Assembly (NCBI GenBank): GCA_013140695.1
Contig: JABFSI010000085.1
Span: 1-55,550, forward strand
DNA: 55,550 nucleotides
DNA from: Sideroxydans sp.
Lineage (GTDB): Bacteria > Pseudomonadota > Gammaproteobacteria > Burkholderiales > Gallionellaceae
Direction of reading: 5' to 3'
Shown: piece by piece, positions 38,234-47,010 of the stretch
How the letters are laid out: each line of letters opens with the position of its first letter
Position numbering within the stretch: position 1 is the first letter of the stretch
Program-made: the position numbers and the translations under genes
Notes under the pieces: model-generated
What the model saw: only the letters and a program-made list of their open reading frames with translations
What the model was told of the DNA's origin: nothing
The model's database searches: none

Positions 38234-39688
38234 ATGTTTGAACAAACCTTCAGAAACATCGACGACGTACTGCGCAAAGAAGCGGGCTGCGCCAGCGAAC
38301 TCGACTACACCGAACAATCCTCTTGGCTCTTGTTCTTGAAATACCTTGATGCACTCGAACACAGCAAAGCGATGGAAGCCGAGTTGGAAGGTAAGAAATA
38401 CACCTACCTGCTCGACCCACCTTATCGCTGGCAGACATGGGCTGCGCCTAAGGGTAAGGACGGCAAGATCGACCACAACGCCGCCATGACGGGCGACGAC
38501 CTGCGTGATTTTGTGAATCAAACGCTGTTCCCCTACCTGCATCGCTTCAAAGAAAAAGCCGATAACGCCAAAACGCTGGAATACAAAATCGGCGAAATCT
38601 TCGGTGAGATCAAAAACAGAATCCAGAGCGGCTACAACCTACGCGACATCATCGACCACATCGACGAGCTGCGCTTCGGTTCGCAAGTGGAAAAGCACGA
38701 ACTCTCGCACCTGTACGAAGCCAAGATCAAAAACATGGGCAACGCCGGGCGCAACGGCGGCGAGTACTACACCCCGCGCCCGCTCATTCGCGCCATGGTG
38801 CAAGTGGTCAATCCCACAATCGGCGAAACCATTTATGACGGCGCATGTGGCAGTGCAGGCTTTCTGTGCGAAGCGTTCGATTATTTGAGAACGAAACCGC
38901 AGCTCACCACGCGCGATCTCAAGACCCTGCAAGAGACCACCTTCTACGGCATCGAAAAGAAAAGCCTCGCCTACGTCATCGCGATCATGAACATGATCCT
39001 GCACGGCATCGAAGCGCCCAACATCGCCCACGCCAACACCCTTGGCATGAACCTAAACGATGTGCAGGACAAAGACCGCTTCGACATCGTCCTCGCCAAC
39101 CCGCCTTTCGGCGGCAAAGAACGCAAGGAAGTGCAGCAAAACTTCCCCATCAAGACCGGCGAAACCGCCTTCCTGTTTTTGCAGCACTTCATCAAGTTTT
39201 TGAAAGCAGGCGGACGCGGCGCAATCGTCATCAAAAATACCTTCCTCAGCAACACCGACAACGCCTCGGTGAGCCTGCGCAAACACCTGCTGGAAAGTTG
39301 CAACCTGCACACCGTGCTCGATTGCCCCGGTGGCACGTTTCAAGGCGCGGGCGTGAAAACCGTGGTGCTGTTTTTCGAGAAAGGCGCACCGACGCGCAAG
39401 GTTTGGTACTACCAGCTCGAACCCGGCCGCAACATGGGCAAGACCAACCCGCTCAACGATGCCGACCTCGCCGAATTCATCGCGCTGCAAAAAAGCTTCG
39501 CCGTTTCGCCCAAGAGCTGGAGCGTGGATGCGGCGACAATTGATCCCGCGACCTTCGATCTTTCCGTGAAGAATCCCGAAGGTGGCGAAGCCGTGGTGCA
39601 TCGTAGCCCGCAGGACATCATGGACGAGATCGCCGCGCTGGATGCGGAGAGTGCGGAAGTGCTGGGGAATATCAGGGCGTTGCTATGA
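38234..39688 (+). CDS. hsdM: Type I restriction-modification methyltransferase subunit HsdM
   Basis: N6-adenine methyltransferase of 484 residues. The N-terminal HsdM helical domain (about 1-140) is followed by the SAM-binding motif I region YDGACGSAGFLCEAFDY and the catalytic motif IV NPPFGG (DIVLANPPFGGK). GRNGGEYYTPRPLIRAMVQ is typical of the subunit. With HsdS it methylates the host sites and with HsdS and HsdR it forms the restriction complex. It overlaps hsdS by 4 bp (ATGA). Confidence 0.95.
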   Translation: MFEQTFRNIDDVLRKEAGCASELDYTEQSSWLLFLKYLDALEHSKAMEAELEGKKYTYLLDPPYRWQTWAAPKGKDGKIDHNAAMTGDDLRDFVNQTLFPYLHRFKEKADNAKTLEYKIGEIFGEIKNRIQSGYNLRDIIDHIDELRFGSQVEKHELSHLYEAKIKNMGNAGRNGGEYYTPRPLIRAMVQVVNPTIGETIYDGACGSAGFLCEAFDYLRTKPQLTTRDLKTLQETTFYGIEKKSLAYVIAIMNMILHGIEAPNIAHANTLGMNLNDVQDKDRFDIVLANPPFGGKERKEVQQNFPIKTGETAFLFLQHFIKFLKAGGRGAIVIKNTFLSNTDNASVSLRKHLLESCNLHTVLDCPGGTFQGAGVKTVVLFFEKGAPTRKVWYYQLEPGRNMGKTNPLNDADLAEFIALQKSFAVSPKSWSVDAATIDPATFDLSVKNPEGGEAVVHRSPQDIMDEIAALDAESAEVLGNIRALL

Positions 39689-40899
39689 AGGCAGGGTGGC
39701 AGACAGTTACCGTTGGCGAGTTGGGCCGTGTCTTTAACGGCAACAGCATCAGCGAGGCTGAAAAGAAGGCCAACTTCGAAGGATTGGAAGAAGGTGTGCC
39801 ATATATCGGAACAAAGAACGTTAGCTTCGACCACGAGATTGAGTATGAAACGGGGGTAAAAATCCCGGGCGAAAAGCAAGGTGGCTTCAAGTTAGCTCCA
39901 GCGAATACTGTTTTCATTTGTGCGGAAGGCGGCAGCGCGGGGCGAAAAATTGCGCACACCGACAGGGAGGTCTTCTTCGGGAATAAGCTATATGCAATTA
40001 GCCCGACACATTTCAACAGCAGCCGCTTTGTTTTCTACTACTGTTTGAGTGACGATTTCGCGAAGCAGTTCAAAAGTGCAATGGCTGGCCTCATTGGTGG
40101 TGTGTCGATGAATAAGTTCAAGGAATTGAACATCACGCTTCCTCCGCTTTCTGAACAGCAGCGCATCGTCGCCATACTCGACGAGGTGTTCGACGGCATC
40201 GCCACCGCCAAAGCCAATACCGAAAAGAACCTGCAAAACGCACGCGCCCTGTTCGAAAGCCACCTGCAATCCGTCTTCACCCAACGCGGCGAGGGGTGGA
40301 TGGAGAAGGCGCTCGGCGATGTCTGCGAATTTGAGAATGGTGACCGCGGCAAAAACTATCCCAACCGTAACGAATATGTTGAGTCTGGGATTCCTTGGAT
40401 CAACACGGGGCACATTCAGCCAGACGGAACTCTCTCCACAGATGAAATGAATTTCATCACGCAGAAAAAATTCGATTCGCTACGCAGCGGTAAGATTCAA
40501 CCAGGAGACTTAGTCTATTGCTTGAGAGGTGCAACGCTTGGCAAAACAGCATTAGTTGCTCCGCTCACCGAGGGGGCAGTCGCGTCCTCTCTCGTCATAG
40601 TCCGCCCGTCCGCGATTCTGGATAGTAGGTTTCTTTACTTCTTTCTCACCAGTCCACATGGACAAGGGCTCATCAGAGGATTCGAGAACGGCGCTGCCCA
40701 ACCAAATCTTGGTGCAAGGAGTGTGGCTAAATATCCGATTTCATTCCCTACGGCTAAAGAGCAAAAGGGAATCGCCGATAGGCTCATGGTTTTTCGTGAA
40801 GAAACCCAACGCCTCGAATCCCTCTACCAGCGCAAGCTCGCCGCCCTAGCCGAGCTGAAAAAGTCGCTGCTGCATCAGGCGTTTAGCGGGATGCTTTAA
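39685..40899 (+). CDS. hsdS: Type I restriction-modification specificity subunit HsdS
   Basis: DNA-recognition subunit of 404 residues with two target-recognition domains. TRD1 spans about 1-150; the central conserved helical spacer is LPPLSEQQRIVAILDEVFDG to FESHLQSVF (about 152-200); TRD2 spans about 205-350; a second conserved helix region ends in QRKLAALAELKKSLLHQAFS. The target is bipartite, but its sequence cannot be predicted by eye. It starts inside the end of hsdM. Confidence 0.93.
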   Translation: MKAGWQTVTVGELGRVFNGNSISEAEKKANFEGLEEGVPYIGTKNVSFDHEIEYETGVKIPGEKQGGFKLAPANTVFICAEGGSAGRKIAHTDREVFFGNKLYAISPTHFNSSRFVFYYCLSDDFAKQFKSAMAGLIGGVSMNKFKELNITLPPLSEQQRIVAILDEVFDGIATAKANTEKNLQNARALFESHLQSVFTQRGEGWMEKALGDVCEFENGDRGKNYPNRNEYVESGIPWINTGHIQPDGTLSTDEMNFITQKKFDSLRSGKIQPGDLVYCLRGATLGKTALVAPLTEGAVASSLVIVRPSAILDSRFLYFFLTSPHGQGLIRGFENGAAQPNLGARSVAKYPISFPTAKEQKGIADRLMVFREETQRLESLYQRKLAALAELKKSLLHQAFSGML

Positions 40900-40949: not shown

Positions 40950-41723
40950 ATGAGTGCAAAACGTATTGCCAATCAATATCACGCCACCTTTGAGGGGGCT
41001 CGCCAAGTTGATGAGGACGGCAACGAGTTTTGGTTTGCCCGCGATCTTGCCCCTTTGCTGGATTACCAGCAGTGGCGCAATTTCATGCTGGTGATCGACA
41101 AGGCACGACAGGCTTGCGAAAAGTCGGGACGCGCGGTTGCCGACCATTTTGCTGATATCAGCAAAATGGTCGATATAGGCTCTGGCGCGCAGCGCGAAGT
41201 TGCAGATATCAGGCTGTCGCGTTACGCCTGCTACCTAATCGTGCAGAACGGCGATCCTTCCAAGCCGGTAATCGCCAACGGGCAAACCTACTTTGCGATG
41301 CAGACGCGGCGGCAGGAGCTGAACGACGACGAGAAGTTTGCGCGCCTATCGGAAGATGAGAAGCGTCTGGCTATCCGCAATGAGCTAGCTGAGCACAACA
41401 AACAACTTGCCGCTGCTGCCAAGGATGCCGGAGTGGATACGCCGCTCGACTATGCCATCTTTCAGGACCACGGTTACAAGGGCTTGTACGGCGGCATGGG
41501 GGCGAAGGATATTCACGCCCGCAAGGGGCTGAAGAAGAGCGAGAAGATACTCGATCACATGGGCAGCACCGAGCTGGCGGCCAACCTGTTCCGCGCCACG
41601 CAGGCCGAAGAGAAGTTGAAGCGTGACAATATCAGCGGCAAGCAGCGCGCCAATCAGGCGCATTTCGAGGTGGGTCAGAAGGTTCGCCAGACCATCAAGG
41701 AACTGGGCGGCACCATGCCGTAG
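40950..41723 (+). CDS. dinD: DNA damage-inducible protein D (DinD), probably truncated by TAG
   Basis: Protein of 257 residues of the DinD family, with an N-terminal BRO-like domain (EFWFARDLAPLLDYQQWRNF) and the typical QTRRQELNDDEKFARLSEDE and FQDHGYKGLYGGMGAKDIHA stretches. In E. coli DinD is LexA-controlled and binds RecA. Here TAG 41721-41723 follows GGTMP, while the frame continues with NLPIPEQSVKKIESAKKKLD, which looks like the normal DinD tail. A single-base change from a Glu codon (GAG to TAG) would explain it. No SOS box was recognised. It sits in an R-M operon, 50 bp after hsdS. Confidence 0.85.
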   Translation: MSAKRIANQYHATFEGARQVDEDGNEFWFARDLAPLLDYQQWRNFMLVIDKARQACEKSGRAVADHFADISKMVDIGSGAQREVADIRLSRYACYLIVQNGDPSKPVIANGQTYFAMQTRRQELNDDEKFARLSEDEKRLAIRNELAEHNKQLAAAAKDAGVDTPLDYAIFQDHGYKGLYGGMGAKDIHARKGLKKSEKILDHMGSTELAANLFRATQAEEKLKRDNISGKQRANQAHFEVGQKVRQTIKELGGTMP

Positions 41724-41828
41724 AACTTGCCGATACCAGAGCAAAGCGTAAAAAAGATTGAAAGCGCGAAGAAAAAGCTGGATAAGAAAAGTGATGGGGA
41801 TGGGGTTTGGCAATCGGAGGTATGTGTG

Positions 41829-42668
41829 ATGAAAAGTCAGCCAGCTATTTTTGAAGAGCATCAAATCCGCCGTGTGTACGTCGAAGCCACGGAAACTTGG
41901 TGGTTTTCGGTGGTGGACATTGTGCAGGTGCTGACGCAACAGCCGGATTACCAGACCGCCAGAACTTACTGGAAAGTGCTGAAGAACAGGTTAGGCAAGG
42001 AAGGCAGCCAACTGGTTACAAATTGTAACCAGTTGAAAATGACCGCCGAGGACGGCAAACAACGGCTAACCGATGTTGCTACCGCCGAAACATTGCTGCG
42101 GCTGGTGCAGTCCGTCCCTAGCCCGAAGGCGGAGCCGATCAAGCTGTGGTTGGCGAAGGTGGGCTATGAGCGGATGCGGGAAATGGCCGATCCTGCGCTG
42201 TCTTTGGAGCGCGCGCGCGAAACTTGGCAGAAGCACGGGCGTAGCGAGAAGTGGATACAGCAGCGCATGACTGGTCAGGAAACGCGCAACAAGCTAACCG
42301 ACTATTGGGCGAAGCACGATATCAAGAAGGGTGAGGAATTTGCCATCCTCACCAACATCATTCATCAGGAATGGTCCGAAGTAGATGTGAAGTCGCACAA
42401 GTCGATGAAGGGTTTGAAGACGCAAAATCTGCGCGACCACATGAGCGAGGCAGAGTTGATTTTCACTGCGCTGGCGGAGTTGTCCACGCGCCAGATCGCC
42501 GAGAGTGTCGAAGCCACGGGCATGGCAGAGAATGAGGCCGCAGCAAAGACGGGTGGCGGCATTGCCAAGAAAGCGCGCTTGGAACTGGAGGCGAAAACCG
42601 GCAGGAAAGTGGTGAGCGGGGAGAATTTTCTGCCGCCTGCAAAGCGTAAGGGAATAGCGAAAAAATGA
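41829..42668 (+). CDS. BRO-N/prophage antirepressor-like protein
   Basis: Protein of 279 residues. The N-terminal BRO domain (HQIRRVYVEATETWWFSVVD to LRLVQSVPSPKAEPIKLWLA, residues about 8-115) resembles phage antirepressors and baculovirus BRO proteins, which bind DNA. The C-terminal part is helical and charged and unrecognised. The frame is in phase with dinD back to 41727, but GGAGG at 41816-41820 points to ATG 41829. The stop overlaps the ATG of the hsdR remnant (ATGA), so it was originally the gene directly before hsdR. Confidence 0.78.
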   Translation: MKSQPAIFEEHQIRRVYVEATETWWFSVVDIVQVLTQQPDYQTARTYWKVLKNRLGKEGSQLVTNCNQLKMTAEDGKQRLTDVATAETLLRLVQSVPSPKAEPIKLWLAKVGYERMREMADPALSLERARETWQKHGRSEKWIQQRMTGQETRNKLTDYWAKHDIKKGEEFAILTNIIHQEWSEVDVKSHKSMKGLKTQNLRDHMSEAELIFTALAELSTRQIAESVEATGMAENEAAAKTGGGIAKKARLELEAKTGRKVVSGENFLPPAKRKGIAKK

Positions 42669-42736
42669 ACGAAGCCGAAACCCGCGCCGAACACATCGAC
42701 CCCGCGCTGAAAGCCGCAGGCTGTGGCGTGGTGTAG
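42665..42736 (+). pseudogene. Remnant of an hsdR 5' end
   Basis: A 23-codon frame starts at ATG 42665 (overlapping the previous stop) and ends in TAG 42734-42736. It is about 90 percent identical to the first 69 bp of the intact hsdR at 44203, differing at about six positions, then diverges. The encoded start MNEAETRAEHIDPAL is shared. It shows that an hsdR gene once began here and was cut off by the yjjJ segment; the intact hsdR now lies 1.5 kb downstream. Confidence 0.8.
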
Positions 42737-42813
42737 TCACCACCGCTTGCGCTTGTCGCCAAGCGACCTCATAATATCTATTCATTAAATTATTCACTTT
42801 TCAATTCACGATC

Positions 42814-44157
42814 ATGTCATCGCATCTTGATGCGCTTCGTATTTTGCTGGCAGCGGGCCCCCAATCAGCACAGCAACTGATTGAAAAAATGGGGATTAGC
42901 CAGCCCACTCTGTCGCGTGCGCTCAGTCGTCTTGGCGATGAGGTGGTGCGTTTGGGCGCGGCGCGATCTATGCAATACACCTTGCGGGATACGGTGCGTG
43001 GTGTGGCGGATATTCCTGTGTATCGAGTGAATGCCGAGGGGCAGATACGCAGCTTGGGCACGCTAGTTGCGGTGCGTCCGCAGGGGTTTGTGATGCGTCA
43101 GGCAGATGGTGTAACCCTGCACAGTGAGGGGCTGCCATGGTGGTTGTTTGATATGCGTCCGCAGGGTTTTCTGGGGCGGGCTTATGCCGCGCGCCACGCT
43201 GCTGCGCTGGGGCTGCCCACACGACTTAGCGATTGGAGTGATGACCATGTTTTGCGTGCATTGCAGGCGCATGGTCATGATGTGGTGGGTAATTTGCTGC
43301 TGGGTGATCTGGCCCGTGATCGCTTTCTTTCCACTCCGCTTCCTGCGCCCGTTGCAGAGGCGCAAAAGGCCGAGGTGTATCGCCAGCTCGCACTGGATGC
43401 GGCGAGTGGCGAGGTGGCCGGGAGTTCTGCTGGTGGAGAGCAGCCGAAGTTTGCGGTGTATGCCACGACGCCAGCTGGGCCGCGTCATCTGCTGGTGAAG
43501 TTTAGCGAGGCGGAGGATAGCCCGGTGAGTGAGCGCTGGCGCGATTTGCTGTTGGCCGAGCATCTGGCGCTGGAAACCTTGCGCGCAGCGGATATCCCCG
43601 CTGCACAAACTTATGTGTCCGACCATGGTGGCCAGCGCTTTCTTGAAGTGGAGCGCTTTGACCGTGTGGGTAGTCTGGGGCGGCGTGCACTGCATTCGCT
43701 CACGGCATTGGATGCGGAATTTGTGGGGGCTGGCACAGGTGGCTGGCCGCTGATTGCTCGCCGTCTTGCTGATGCAGGACAGATAGAGCCGCAGGCGGCA
43801 GAGGGGGCTGCGATGTTGTGGGCGTTTGGTACGCTGATCGGTAACACTGACATGCACAACGGCAATGTGTCGTTCATTGCCGAGCATGGACGACCCTATG
43901 CCATTGCACCAGCTTATGACATGACGACGATGGCTTTTGCGCCACGTAGCGGCGGCGGACTGCCGGAGAGTATCGCTGCCCCCACCATTCAGGCAGATGT
44001 GCCCAACGATATATGGAGACGCGCAGAAATGCTGGCGCGCGAATTCCGTGTTCGGGTGCGCGCTTCAGATGGCTTCAGTCTCCGTTTCGGCGCGTGTATT
44101 ACCGCACTTGAAAATCACCTCAATGCGGCGAGTACCGCGATTGCTCGGTTGGGGTAG
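42814..44157 (+). CDS. yjjJ: HipA-family kinase, YjjJ type
   Basis: Protein of 447 residues close in length and build to E. coli YjjJ: an N-terminal winged helix-turn-helix (LDALRILLAAGPQSAQQLIE, GISQPTLSRALSRLG) fused to a HipA kinase domain. Visible kinase features are the GEQPKFAVY strand and LLVKF, the catalytic loop GNTDMHNGNVSF, and the PAYDMTTM metal-binding motif. HipA relatives phosphorylate translation factors such as tRNA synthetases and cause growth arrest; no separate hipB is present, so the N-terminal domain may act as built-in repressor. It is inserted in the R-M operon. Confidence 0.85.
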   Translation: MSSHLDALRILLAAGPQSAQQLIEKMGISQPTLSRALSRLGDEVVRLGAARSMQYTLRDTVRGVADIPVYRVNAEGQIRSLGTLVAVRPQGFVMRQADGVTLHSEGLPWWLFDMRPQGFLGRAYAARHAAALGLPTRLSDWSDDHVLRALQAHGHDVVGNLLLGDLARDRFLSTPLPAPVAEAQKAEVYRQLALDAASGEVAGSSAGGEQPKFAVYATTPAGPRHLLVKFSEAEDSPVSERWRDLLLAEHLALETLRAADIPAAQTYVSDHGGQRFLEVERFDRVGSLGRRALHSLTALDAEFVGAGTGGWPLIARRLADAGQIEPQAAEGAAMLWAFGTLIGNTDMHNGNVSFIAEHGRPYAIAPAYDMTTMAFAPRSGGGLPESIAAPTIQADVPNDIWRRAEMLAREFRVRVRASDGFSLRFGACITALENHLNAASTAIARLG

Positions 44158-44202: not shown

Positions 44203-47010
44203 ATGAACGAAGCCGAAACCCGCGCCGAACACATCGATCCCGCCCTGCGTGCCGCAGGCTGGGGCGTGGTCGAGGGCAGCAAAGTGATGCGCGAATACCG
44301 CATCACCGAGGGACGCTTGCAGGGGGCGGGGCAGCGCAGCAAGCCGGAGATTGCGGACTATGTGCTGGTGTATCGCAACCACAAGCTGGCGGTGGTTGAG
44401 GCGAAGCGCCGCGACTTACCTTACACAGAAGGATTGGGTCAGGCCAAAGCATACGCGGGCAAGATCGGTTCGCGTTTTTCCTATGCCACGAATGGCTTGC
44501 GCATCTACGGTGTAGATATGCAAAGTGGGGCAGAGGCTGAGGTCGAGGCTTATCCGACCCCGGATGAATTGTGGAGCCGTACCTTCGTTTCGACAGGCTC
44601 AACGACCGATGAATGGAGGGAGCGTTTTGCCGCCGTACCGTTCGAGGATAAGGGGGGCATGTGGGGTTCGCGCTACTACCAAGACAGTGCGATCAATGCC
44701 GTGTTGGAAGCGATAGCCGACAACCACCAGCGCATCTTGCTGACGCTGGCGACCGGCACGGGCAAGACTTTCATCGCGTTTCAGTTGGCGTGGAAGCTGT
44801 TTCATGCACGCTGGAATCTCAACCGCGATGGGGCCCGCCAGCCGCGCATCCTGTTCCTCGCCGACCGCAACATCCTGGCGGATCAGGCGTACAACGCATT
44901 TTCCGCTTTCCCCGAAGACGCGCTGGTGCGCATTGCGCCGGACGACATCCGCAAGAAGGGGCGCGTGCCGAAGAATGGCAATGTGTTCTTCACGATCTTC
45001 CAAACTTTTGCTTCGACAGGCTCAGCAACCGGAGCTCCTAAATCGGAGGGGGAGCTTGTTGAACTCGAGATTAAAGATGCCTATGGCTATATGTACATTC
45101 TGGAGTGTGCGGATGGCAGCTTTTATACTGGGAGTACAGTTGATTTAAGGTTACGGCTTGAACAACACCAAAACGGTGAAGGCGCTAAGCACACAAAAAA
45201 TAATGCGCCTGTGAAGCTCGTCTATTACGAAACGTATGATCGGATTGATGAAGCTTTTGCGAGAGAGAAGCAGGTGCAAGGTTGGAGTCGCGCTAAGAAG
45301 ATTGCTTTGATTAACGGCAATGCCGATTTGCTTCGAAAATTATCCAAGTGTTCGACAAGCTCACACACCGCGCCAAGCGTAATGCCGGCCTCTGGAGTTT
45401 CGGCAAGCTCACCCACCAAGCCTGTCGAAGGCGCGGTCCCTGAGCCTGTCGAAGGGTACTTCGGTGAGTACCCGCCTGACTTTTTCGACTTCATCATCAT
45501 CGATGAGTGTCATCGTGGCGGGGCGAATGACGAAAGCACTTGGCGCGGCATTCTTGAATATTTCGCGCCTGCGGTGCAGCTCGGCCTGACCGCGACGCCC
45601 AAAGTGGCGGACAACGTGAACACCTACGATTACTTTGGCGAGCCGGTGTATGTGTATTCGCTGAAGGAAGGTATCAATGACGGTTTCCTTACGCCGTTCC
45701 GCGTGAAACAGTACGCCACCACGCTGGACGAGTATGTGTACACCCCAGACGACTACCTGATCGAGGGCGAGATAGAGGCGGGCAAGCGCTACGAGGAGAA
45801 GGATTTCAATCGCATCATCGAGATCGAAGCACGCGAACGTTATCGCGTGAAGCTATTCATGGAATCGATCAACCAGCGGGAGAAGACGCTGGTGTTCTGC
45901 GCCAATCAGGCGCACGCGCTGGCGGTGCGCGATCTGATCAATCAGCTCAAAACAAGCAGTACCGATTCGAACTATTGCGTGAGGGTGACGGCCAATGACG
46001 GTGAGCGCGGCGAACAATTCCTGCGCGAATTTCAGGACAACGAGAAAAGCCTCCCCACGATACTTACGACCTCGCAGAAACTTTCCACTGGTGTAGATGC
46101 ACGCAACGTGCGCAACATTGTGCTGATGCGCCCGATCAATTCGATGATCGAGTTTAAGCAGATCATCGGGCGCGGCACGCGGCTGTATGACGGCAAGGAT
46201 TACTTCACTATTTTCGATTTTGTGAAGGCGCATGAAAAGTTTAACGATCCAGGATGGGATGGCCCCGTTGATGCGCCTGAGCCGTGCAAGACGTGCGGCC
46301 GTTCTCCCTGTGTGTGCGTCAGGGAGCCGCAGCCGCCTTGTTATGTGTGCGGCCAGCAACCATGCATTTGCGAAAAAGCGCCGTGTCGGAAATGCGGCCA
46401 GCGTCCTTGCGTGTGCAAGAAGGTTAGGGTGAAGTTGGCGGATGGCAAGGATCGCACTATCCAACATATTGCGGTGACGACTTTCTGGGGTGCAGACGGG
46501 AAGCCTCTTTCTGCAGCACAATTTTTGGAATTACTGTTCGGCCAGTTGCCGGAATTTTTCAAAGACGAAGACGAGTTGCGTGCGTTGTGGAGTTTGCCAG
46601 ATACGCGCAAGAAGTTGCTGGAAGGCTTGGCGGAAAAGGGCTTCGGCAAAGACCAACTTTTCGAGATGCAGAAAATCATCGACGCCGAGAAGAGTGACTT
46701 GTTTGATGTGTTGGCGCACGTGGCGTTTGCGATGGAGCCGATCACTCGCGAAGCGCGCGCCGAGGTGGCACACAAGGCTGTGCATCAACGCTTCAACGAC
46801 AAGCAGCAAACCTTCCTTGATTTTGTGCTGGCGCATTACGTGAAAGAAGGTGTGGAAGAATTGGAGCAGGAAAAACTCACCAAGCTCCTGCGTTTGAAAT
46901 ATCACGATTCAATTCCTGATGGCGTGGCAGACTTGGGTGGAGACATCGCCCAGATTCGAAATTTATTTTCCGGTTTTCAACGCTATTTGTATAAGGCAGA
47001 AGTTCGATGA
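44203..47010 (+). CDS. hsdR: Type I restriction subunit HsdR with inserted GIY-YIG domain
   Basis: DNA translocase and nuclease of 935 residues, about 150 longer than expected. The N-terminal nuclease has D52 and E66-x-K68; the helicase has Walker A ATGTGKT (183-189) and DECH (434-437), with later motifs such as QIIGRGTRLYDG. Residues about 270-417 are an in-frame insertion between FFTIFQTF and YFGEYPPDFFDF, carrying a GIY-YIG nuclease domain. A short solo repeat is translated near residue 129 (STGST). Residues about 694-738 hold three PCxxCGxxPCxC repeats. It lies 45 bp after yjjJ and overlaps the next ATG. Whether the protein still restricts is unknown. Confidence 0.93.
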   Translation: MNEAETRAEHIDPALRAAGWGVVEGSKVMREYRITEGRLQGAGQRSKPEIADYVLVYRNHKLAVVEAKRRDLPYTEGLGQAKAYAGKIGSRFSYATNGLRIYGVDMQSGAEAEVEAYPTPDELWSRTFVSTGSTTDEWRERFAAVPFEDKGGMWGSRYYQDSAINAVLEAIADNHQRILLTLATGTGKTFIAFQLAWKLFHARWNLNRDGARQPRILFLADRNILADQAYNAFSAFPEDALVRIAPDDIRKKGRVPKNGNVFFTIFQTFASTGSATGAPKSEGELVELEIKDAYGYMYILECADGSFYTGSTVDLRLRLEQHQNGEGAKHTKNNAPVKLVYYETYDRIDEAFAREKQVQGWSRAKKIALINGNADLLRKLSKCSTSSHTAPSVMPASGVSASSPTKPVEGAVPEPVEGYFGEYPPDFFDFIIIDECHRGGANDESTWRGILEYFAPAVQLGLTATPKVADNVNTYDYFGEPVYVYSLKEGINDGFLTPFRVKQYATTLDEYVYTPDDYLIEGEIEAGKRYEEKDFNRIIEIEARERYRVKLFMESINQREKTLVFCANQAHALAVRDLINQLKTSSTDSNYCVRVTANDGERGEQFLREFQDNEKSLPTILTTSQKLSTGVDARNVRNIVLMRPINSMIEFKQIIGRGTRLYDGKDYFTIFDFVKAHEKFNDPGWDGPVDAPEPCKTCGRSPCVCVREPQPPCYVCGQQPCICEKAPCRKCGQRPCVCKKVRVKLADGKDRTIQHIAVTTFWGADGKPLSAAQFLELLFGQLPEFFKDEDELRALWSLPDTRKKLLEGLAEKGFGKDQLFEMQKIIDAEKSDLFDVLAHVAFAMEPITREARAEVAHKAVHQRFNDKQQTFLDFVLAHYVKEGVEELEQEKLTKLLRLKYHDSIPDGVADLGGDIAQIRNLFSGFQRYLYKAEVR
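44588..44603 (+). repeat. Solo terminal motif translated in hsdR
   Basis: TTTCGACAGGCTCAAC is a one-mismatch copy of the insertion's terminal motif CTTCGACAGGCTCAG, read in the same codon phase as the copies at 45011 (Ser-Thr-Gly-Ser). It lies in a variable region before FEDKGGMW of HsdR and has no partner arm, so it looks like a lone half-element. Confidence 0.7.
45011..45454 (+). mobile_element. Inverted-repeat-bounded GIY-YIG element, in frame inside hsdR
   Basis: The 444-bp segment (148 codons) starts with CTTCGACAGGCTCAG (45011-45025) and ends with its exact reverse complement (45440-45454). Further arms occur as GAGCTTGTTGAAC (45053-45065), TTCGACAAGCTCA (45351-45363), TTTCGGCAAGCTCA (45398-45411) and GCCTGTCGAAG (45420-45430), giving hairpins at both ends. 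Between them (45088 to about 45345) is a GIY-YIG domain of the small YhbQ-like kind: YMYIL and FYTGS, the Arg-bearing DLRLRLEQHQNG, and AREKQVQGWSRAKK with the catalytic Glu. The reading frame stays open from end to end. Mobility is inferred. Confidence 0.75.

Follow-up and report, generated by a model that had tools for sequence, protein, structure and literature searches.

Is a nuclease domain that lies within the open frame of a restriction motor a mobile element, or a working part of the enzyme that holds it? The question is raised by the hsdR gene in a 55,550-nt stretch of the 2.5-Mb genome of Sideroxydans sp. (hereafter the window), which contains a type I restriction locus composed of hsdM, hsdS, two Bro-N genes, a HipA-like gene and hsdR. 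Within hsdR, a 444-bp segment with inverted ends encodes a GIY-YIG domain. Judging from sequence comparisons, we consider it somewhat probable that this insert is a homing-like mobile element of one EcoAI-type hsdR loop that is translated in place. The best reading of its origin is derivation from a repeat-associated nuclease of the UPF0213/Slx1-like GIY-YIG lineage, and its relatives appear to have moved between hsdR alleles.

The Insert and Its Host Protein

The host protein contains the nuclease, motor and EcoEI_R_C domains of a type I R subunit of the EcoAI type, with hsdM and hsdS alongside; its HSDR_N match is slightly under the Pfam cut-off, and NCBIfam labels the product as an EcoAI/FtnUII R subunit. 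An initial annotation of the window had described an in-frame GIY-YIG insert of 444 bp with perfect 15-bp inverted ends, and the analyses of inverted repeats, open frames and Pfam domains bear this out. A single open frame of 935 codons spans the whole insert, which is located between IFQTF and YFGEYP of the protein. The perfect ends (45011-45025 and 45440-45454) can be extended to 21 nt at 90%. The GIY-YIG match (Pfam, E 1.8e-16) is flanked by the ResIII and the SWI2_SNF2/Helicase_C parts, and the Tyr, Tyr, Arg, His and Glu positions, which we take to be the catalytic ones, are all present.

The repeat at the ends, TTCGACARGCTCA, occurs at up to one mismatch in five copies in the window, every one of them in hsdR (100 shuffles gave a mean of 0.07 and a maximum of 1). 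At up to two mismatches the insert contains three plus and three minus copies, and all six are read, as had been noted initially, in matching phases, either Ser-Thr-Gly-Ser (STGS) or Glu-Pro-Val-Glu (EPVE). Across the 29 inserts described below this holds for 119 of 120 copies at the same threshold. Because the insert length is divisible by three and the repeats are read as flexible linkers, no splicing would be needed; the domain could hang off the motor by these repeat-encoded linkers.

In the structure predicted for the isolated domain (aa 287-385; predicted local distance difference test (pLDDT) 91, predicted template modeling score (pTM) 0.82) the segment takes a GIY-YIG fold. The model of the whole HsdR is weak (pLDDT 62, pTM 0.36), with blocks over residues 291-380 at 70-86 and with residues 269-287 and 383-418 below 50, a modeled pattern of confidence that is as expected for a domain on flexible linkers. 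The best solved matches of the domain are the UPF0213 proteins 1zg2 (sequence E 1.3e-19) and 1ywl, followed by Slx1. UPF0213 and Slx1 resemble the domain in sequence and fold; however, they are separate proteins, whereas the domain studied here lies within HsdR.

Repeats are also present in two further loops of some HsdRs: in-frame repeat-like peptides are found near aa 126 and after WKLF..RW in the hsdR genes of G405 (L135), G427 (L039), L165, L185 and L198. In the hsdR of G412 (L155) a tandem array encoding PEPVAV follows the GIY-YIG domain and is broken by a run of N.

Occupied and Empty Loops

Seven GIY domains were used to scan 84,980 genomes, and we retained the best 80 of 412 relatives. 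Among these 80, 28 are located inside HsdR, in the same loop as in the window; they include the four carriers (G405, G412, G422 and G485) found besides the window among 100 genomes of its family. The record titles of the 28 name Pseudomonadota, Planctomycetota, Verrucomicrobiota, Thermodesulfobacteriota, Nitrospirota and Bacteroidota. In 18 of the 28 carriers the domain is flanked by full-length HsdR parts on either side; six of the remainder reach the edge of the locus, and four others (L159, L186, L189 and L198) stop early. The embedded domains of this lineage, 29 with that of the window, all occupy a single loop of a single gene. The initial annotation had pictured a mobile cassette flanked by repetitive extragenic palindromic (REP) sequences and able to land inside a gene. 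Much of this picture is retained, in that the insert recurs, stays in frame, appears to have moved between alleles and has free-standing relatives near repeats; the freedom to land in any gene is not, as 29 of 29 embedded domains belong to one clade in one loop.

The site is also found without the domain. At this position homologues of the same family show a short loop, for example MSGPPKDGHPSPY, as the initial annotation had stated of ordinary HsdRs, and the segment is not an ancestral domain carried by all homologues. At the loop, fourteen alleles of the family and the order that lack the GIY domain are readable. In five the loop is short, at 9-13 residues (L040, L042, L045, L049 and L054); five carry other palindrome-like inserts, recognized by eye (L038, L039, L043, L044 and L052), two hold a dimer of the window repeat (L046 and L047), and two contain the two outer ends alone (L050 and L051). 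A 13-residue loop is found too in L265 (a plasmid) and in L237, which suggests that this short form is probably ancestral. With other palindrome-like in-frame inserts at the same place, the loop counts as a hot spot of short insertions. The outer ends are alike in different hsdR alleles, including the GIY-free L050 and L051. A loss of the DNA between them could leave a scar that stays in frame, which may be what these two alleles represent. Matches to HsdR occur in 281 plasmid records. The 40 rows listed each align in two pieces to no more than 89% of the query, the pattern expected of empty loops, and none of the eight plasmid HsdRs that we read contains a GIY-YIG domain.

Probable Movement between hsdR Alleles

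On a quick HsdR tree of 63 rows, from which the insert was excluded, the pattern of carriers requires 12 changes between presence and absence of the domain, of which at least 10 are needed by well-supported branches. One Gallionellaceae clade of this tree has four carriers amid nine non-carriers, and G405 is placed next to the empty G415. All 29 embedded domains fall into a single clade (Shimodaira-Hasegawa-like approximate likelihood ratio test (SH-aLRT) 95), adjoining L175, a free-standing copy from Bacteroidota that has repeats on either side of the domain. Identity in the domain correlates with identity in HsdR at r 0.31 only, whereas four 95-residue control segments of HsdR reach r 0.72-0.89. 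The discordance runs both ways: L167 and L170 have an identity of 0.62 in HsdR and 0.86 in the domain, whereas L159 and L168 have 0.86 in HsdR and 0.62 in the domain. The domain of G422 is a mosaic, and G+C is lower in the domain than in the HsdR flanks at all 18 full-length loci. An approximately unbiased (AU) test rejects the HsdR tree for the domain; L160 and L168, each with half of HsdR on the contig, were dropped from the AU tests and the identity correlations. A co-conversion tract around the junction is not recognizable, because the surroundings of the junction are conserved anyway. The insert thus resembles homing elements in having a fixed site with occupied and empty alleles and a history discordant with that of the host gene, the formal test of the latter being weakened by its control.

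Several observations weigh against a homing-like element. The AU test also rejects the HsdR tree for the HsdR control segments, by smaller differences, so that we rely on the identity correlations and their controls. The domain tree has few columns and many open forks, and holding L167, L172, L185 and L198 together on it is not rejected (p 0.084). At synonymous sites the Gallionellaceae insert is not younger than its flanks (proportion of synonymous differences 0.545 between G000 and G412, against 0.507 and 0.608), and this divergence indicates no recent transfer among these carriers. L050 and L051 could be precursors instead of scars. The end segments of the insert in the window fold, as single strands, no better than shuffles. 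Restriction to a single site and strong conservation fit domestication as well. Finally, all 28 other carriers are metagenome assemblies according to their record titles, and individual host labels may therefore be wrong. The same circumstance could speak for an error of assembly or binning, as could the split of G405 into two contigs within the insert and the run of N in L155; with these junctions recurring in many separately named assemblies, and the insert on 28 contigs besides that of the window, such an artefact is barely credible.

Selection on the Domain

The domains of the window and G412 differ by 27 synonymous and 2 non-synonymous changes. Among the three closest carriers (G000, G405 and G412) the ratio of non-synonymous to synonymous substitution rates (dN/dS) is 0.011-0.029 for the domain and 0.098-0.191 for the HsdR parts of the same pairs; pairs with G485 are saturated, as are all G422 pairs but one. 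The five catalytic positions are intact in all 29 embedded domains and in all 52 free-standing relatives of the scan, which used conserved motifs and kept the best 80 of 412 relatives, so that decayed copies would be missed. Judged by these substitution patterns, purifying selection acts on the domain sequence. If the domain were instead a passenger, tolerated in a permissive loop and free to drift, this would fit the occurrence in that loop of other palindrome-like inserts (five alleles) and of a repeat dimer (two alleles). However, the excess of synonymous changes and the intact catalytic residues, even if a motif-based search favors conserved copies, make this explanation very unlikely indeed.

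The most serious alternative is that the domain is a domesticated second nuclease that serves restriction, perhaps through cleavage of branched or stalled DNA as the enzyme translocates, and that the module has been exchanged by ordinary recombination. The low dN/dS, the intact active sites and the single site of insertion would all be explained in this way, as would the HsdR N and C parts of full length in 18 of 28 carriers and the adjacent hsdM and hsdS. Domestication does not readily account for the many close HsdRs without the domain, for its patchy presence and discordant history, or for the repeats at the insert ends and beside the free-standing relatives, and we consider it rather unlikely. 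Homing and domestication may also both be true.

Repeats beside Free-Standing Relatives

Exact copies of TTCGACARGCTCA number 17 in the source genome and 2,101 across the 100 family genomes; as a short palindrome with many copies, often in inverted pairs, the repeat has the properties of a REP family. Its dimer in L047 folds with a z of -4.9. We compared repeat density within 350 bp of the domain with that in the rest of the same loci. The embedded loci have 2.65 against 0.105 repeats per kb (an exact copy is present in 23 of 28), and the 52 free-standing loci have 2.29 against 0.105 per kb when a second repeat type, TTCGACN(2,3)GCTCA, is counted (28 of 52 have a copy). A Gallionellaceae clade of free-standing genes, defined by the domain tree, has 2.35 against 0.021 (16 of 25 loci), and core UPF0213-like genes (27 loci, 18 in the tree and 9 placed by match pattern) have 0.21 against 0 (3 of 27). 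One locus of the Gallionellaceae clade, L115, was chosen for its already-seen repeats, which leaves 15 of 24 as the unselected count; the duplicates L116 and L117 were not counted. Around the free-standing relatives the local enrichment is 17- to 112-fold, and the mirrored repeat pattern, used as a control, gave none in the same count. Nine of the 25 Gallionellaceae-clade loci have a minus copy upstream, at 31-83 bp, and a plus copy downstream, at 18-53 bp. Not all loci show the link: no exact copy is nearby in 24 of the 52 free-standing loci, nor in 9 of the 25 of the Gallionellaceae clade. The expectation that the ends recur next to other GIY-YIG genes thus holds for the relatives; it fails for the other four GIY-YIG loci of the source genome, where no copy was found within the 2.4-3.2 kb examined at each. 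Loci of the family survey of GIY genes were chosen in part by open-frame length.

REP-associated tyrosine transposases (RAYTs) are nuclease-type genes amid the REPs that are thought to depend on them. If the repeat were an ordinary REP family moved by such a Y1 transposase, the GIY-YIG nuclease would be hitch-hiking. Y1_Tnp genes occur in 77 of the 100 family genomes, the source genome has three such genes, and REPs within genes are known (PMC3733652, in excerpt). However, 50 Y1_Tnp loci (139,902 bp; the 30 best-scoring and 20 picked by hand, mostly with frames of 230-250 aa) contain no copy of the repeat; about 1.1 copies are expected there by chance from the genome-wide density, so that zero means no enrichment rather than depletion. 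Given this, and the strong enrichment at GIY-YIG loci, hitch-hiking is very unlikely, and the repeat does not qualify as a REP family with its RAYT. Here a GIY-YIG domain seems to take the place of the Y1 transposase.

In the source genome, several repeat copies at L079, L083, L084 and L085 are, by eye, nested in another palindrome (ATTCCCGC...GCGGGAAT), and copies at L080 and L081 fall within open frames, one of 461 codons and one of at least 1,167. In a CRISPR locus (L007 of G293, 504-2835), cas2 and cas1 are separated by a related GIY-YIG gene, free-standing and with repeats alongside.

Possible Mechanism and Known Systems

As a homing-like element, the nuclease would cut either an empty hsdR allele or a hairpin into which the repeats fold, and the insert would be installed by repair templated on an occupied copy. 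Slx1, one of its structural relatives, acts on branched DNA. A broader idea, which we offer tentatively and regard as somewhat improbable, is that a GIY-YIG nuclease acting on hairpins mobilizes a cross-phylum REP-like palindrome family in place of a tyrosine transposase, and that one lineage has become a splicing-free, translated homing element specific to the type I motor loop.

Homing endonuclease elements, inteins and free-standing GIY-YIG homing genes are characterized by a fixed site, patchy presence, lateral spread and an intact nuclease, and the insert appears to share these traits. It differs in that no intein or intron parts were found in it and that it is not a free-standing gene; its homing is inferred. 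Pfam detects no Hint splicing domain in HsdR or in the insert alone, and for a group I or group II intron Rfam gives no match in hsdR up to E 1, while the frame stays open. Homing elements within proteins are known with self-splicing parts. If our reading is correct, an element that persists by being harmless in frame represents a different solution from self-splicing, and its target is directly testable. The element would also provide a candidate enzyme behind the unexplained spread of in-frame palindromic inserts, and the restriction motor would bear a second, conserved and assayable predicted nuclease.

The initial annotation was aware of no described intein-like insertion of this kind. A GIY-YIG insertion at about position 800 of HsdR MCA0838 from Methylococcus capsulatus was published in 2006 and called unique; the excerpt of that report also notes a homologue with 80% identity that lacks the insertion, and its authors raised molecular parasites (PMC1564403). 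Compared by description with MCA0838, the insert studied here differs in its position (residues 270-417, between motor motifs), in being recurrent and in being bounded by repeats. It is a recurrent, repeat-bounded variant and not the first sighting of GIY-YIG in HsdR. REPs and Rickettsia palindromic elements are short palindromes read in frame within genes, dimers included, and are described in the excerpts of two papers without a nuclease domain (PMC3733652, PMC10969869), whereas here the repeats bracket a GIY-YIG domain. In the open-access literature we found no paper that connects GIY-YIG with REPs or that reports repeated insertion into this hsdR loop.

Features of the Window and Other GIY-YIG Fusions

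Table 1. Features of the hsdR insert and of the restriction locus, in window coordinates.
Feature	Position	Strand	Remark
hsdR	44203..47010	+	EcoAI/FtnUII-type restriction subunit, 935 aa, contains insert
In-frame insert in hsdR, 148 codons, inverted ends	45011..45454	+	short loop in homologues
Left end of hsdR insert	45011..45031	+	similar left ends in other alleles
Right end of hsdR insert	45434..45454	-	similar outer ends in other alleles
GIY-YIG domain, aa 295-366 of HsdR	45085..45300	+	Pfam
Degenerate inner repeat copy, upstream of GIY-YIG domain, 2 mismatches	45051..45063	-	
Inner repeat copy, downstream of GIY-YIG domain	45351..45363	+	
Further repeat copy in hsdR insert, 1 mismatch	45399..45411	+	
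Further repeat copy in hsdR insert, 2 mismatches	45417..45429	-	
In-frame repeat copy, other hsdR loop (VSTGST)	44589..44601	+	
hsdM, methyltransferase subunit, same locus as hsdR	38234..39688	+	
hsdS, specificity subunit, same locus as hsdR	39685..40899	+	

Other GIY-YIG domains are found inside HsdM, after the methylase domain (L066:635-2734), and in the middle of HsdS (L068:1447-3312), in both cases with no repeats found within 600 bp. An in-frame fusion of a free-standing GIY-YIG domain with an RNA repair domain of the RlaP type is encoded at L192:3983-5155. Between hsdS and hsdR of the window (40950-44157) are the genes for the two Bro-N proteins, which match the PADLOC candidate PDC-S13, and the HipA-like gene.
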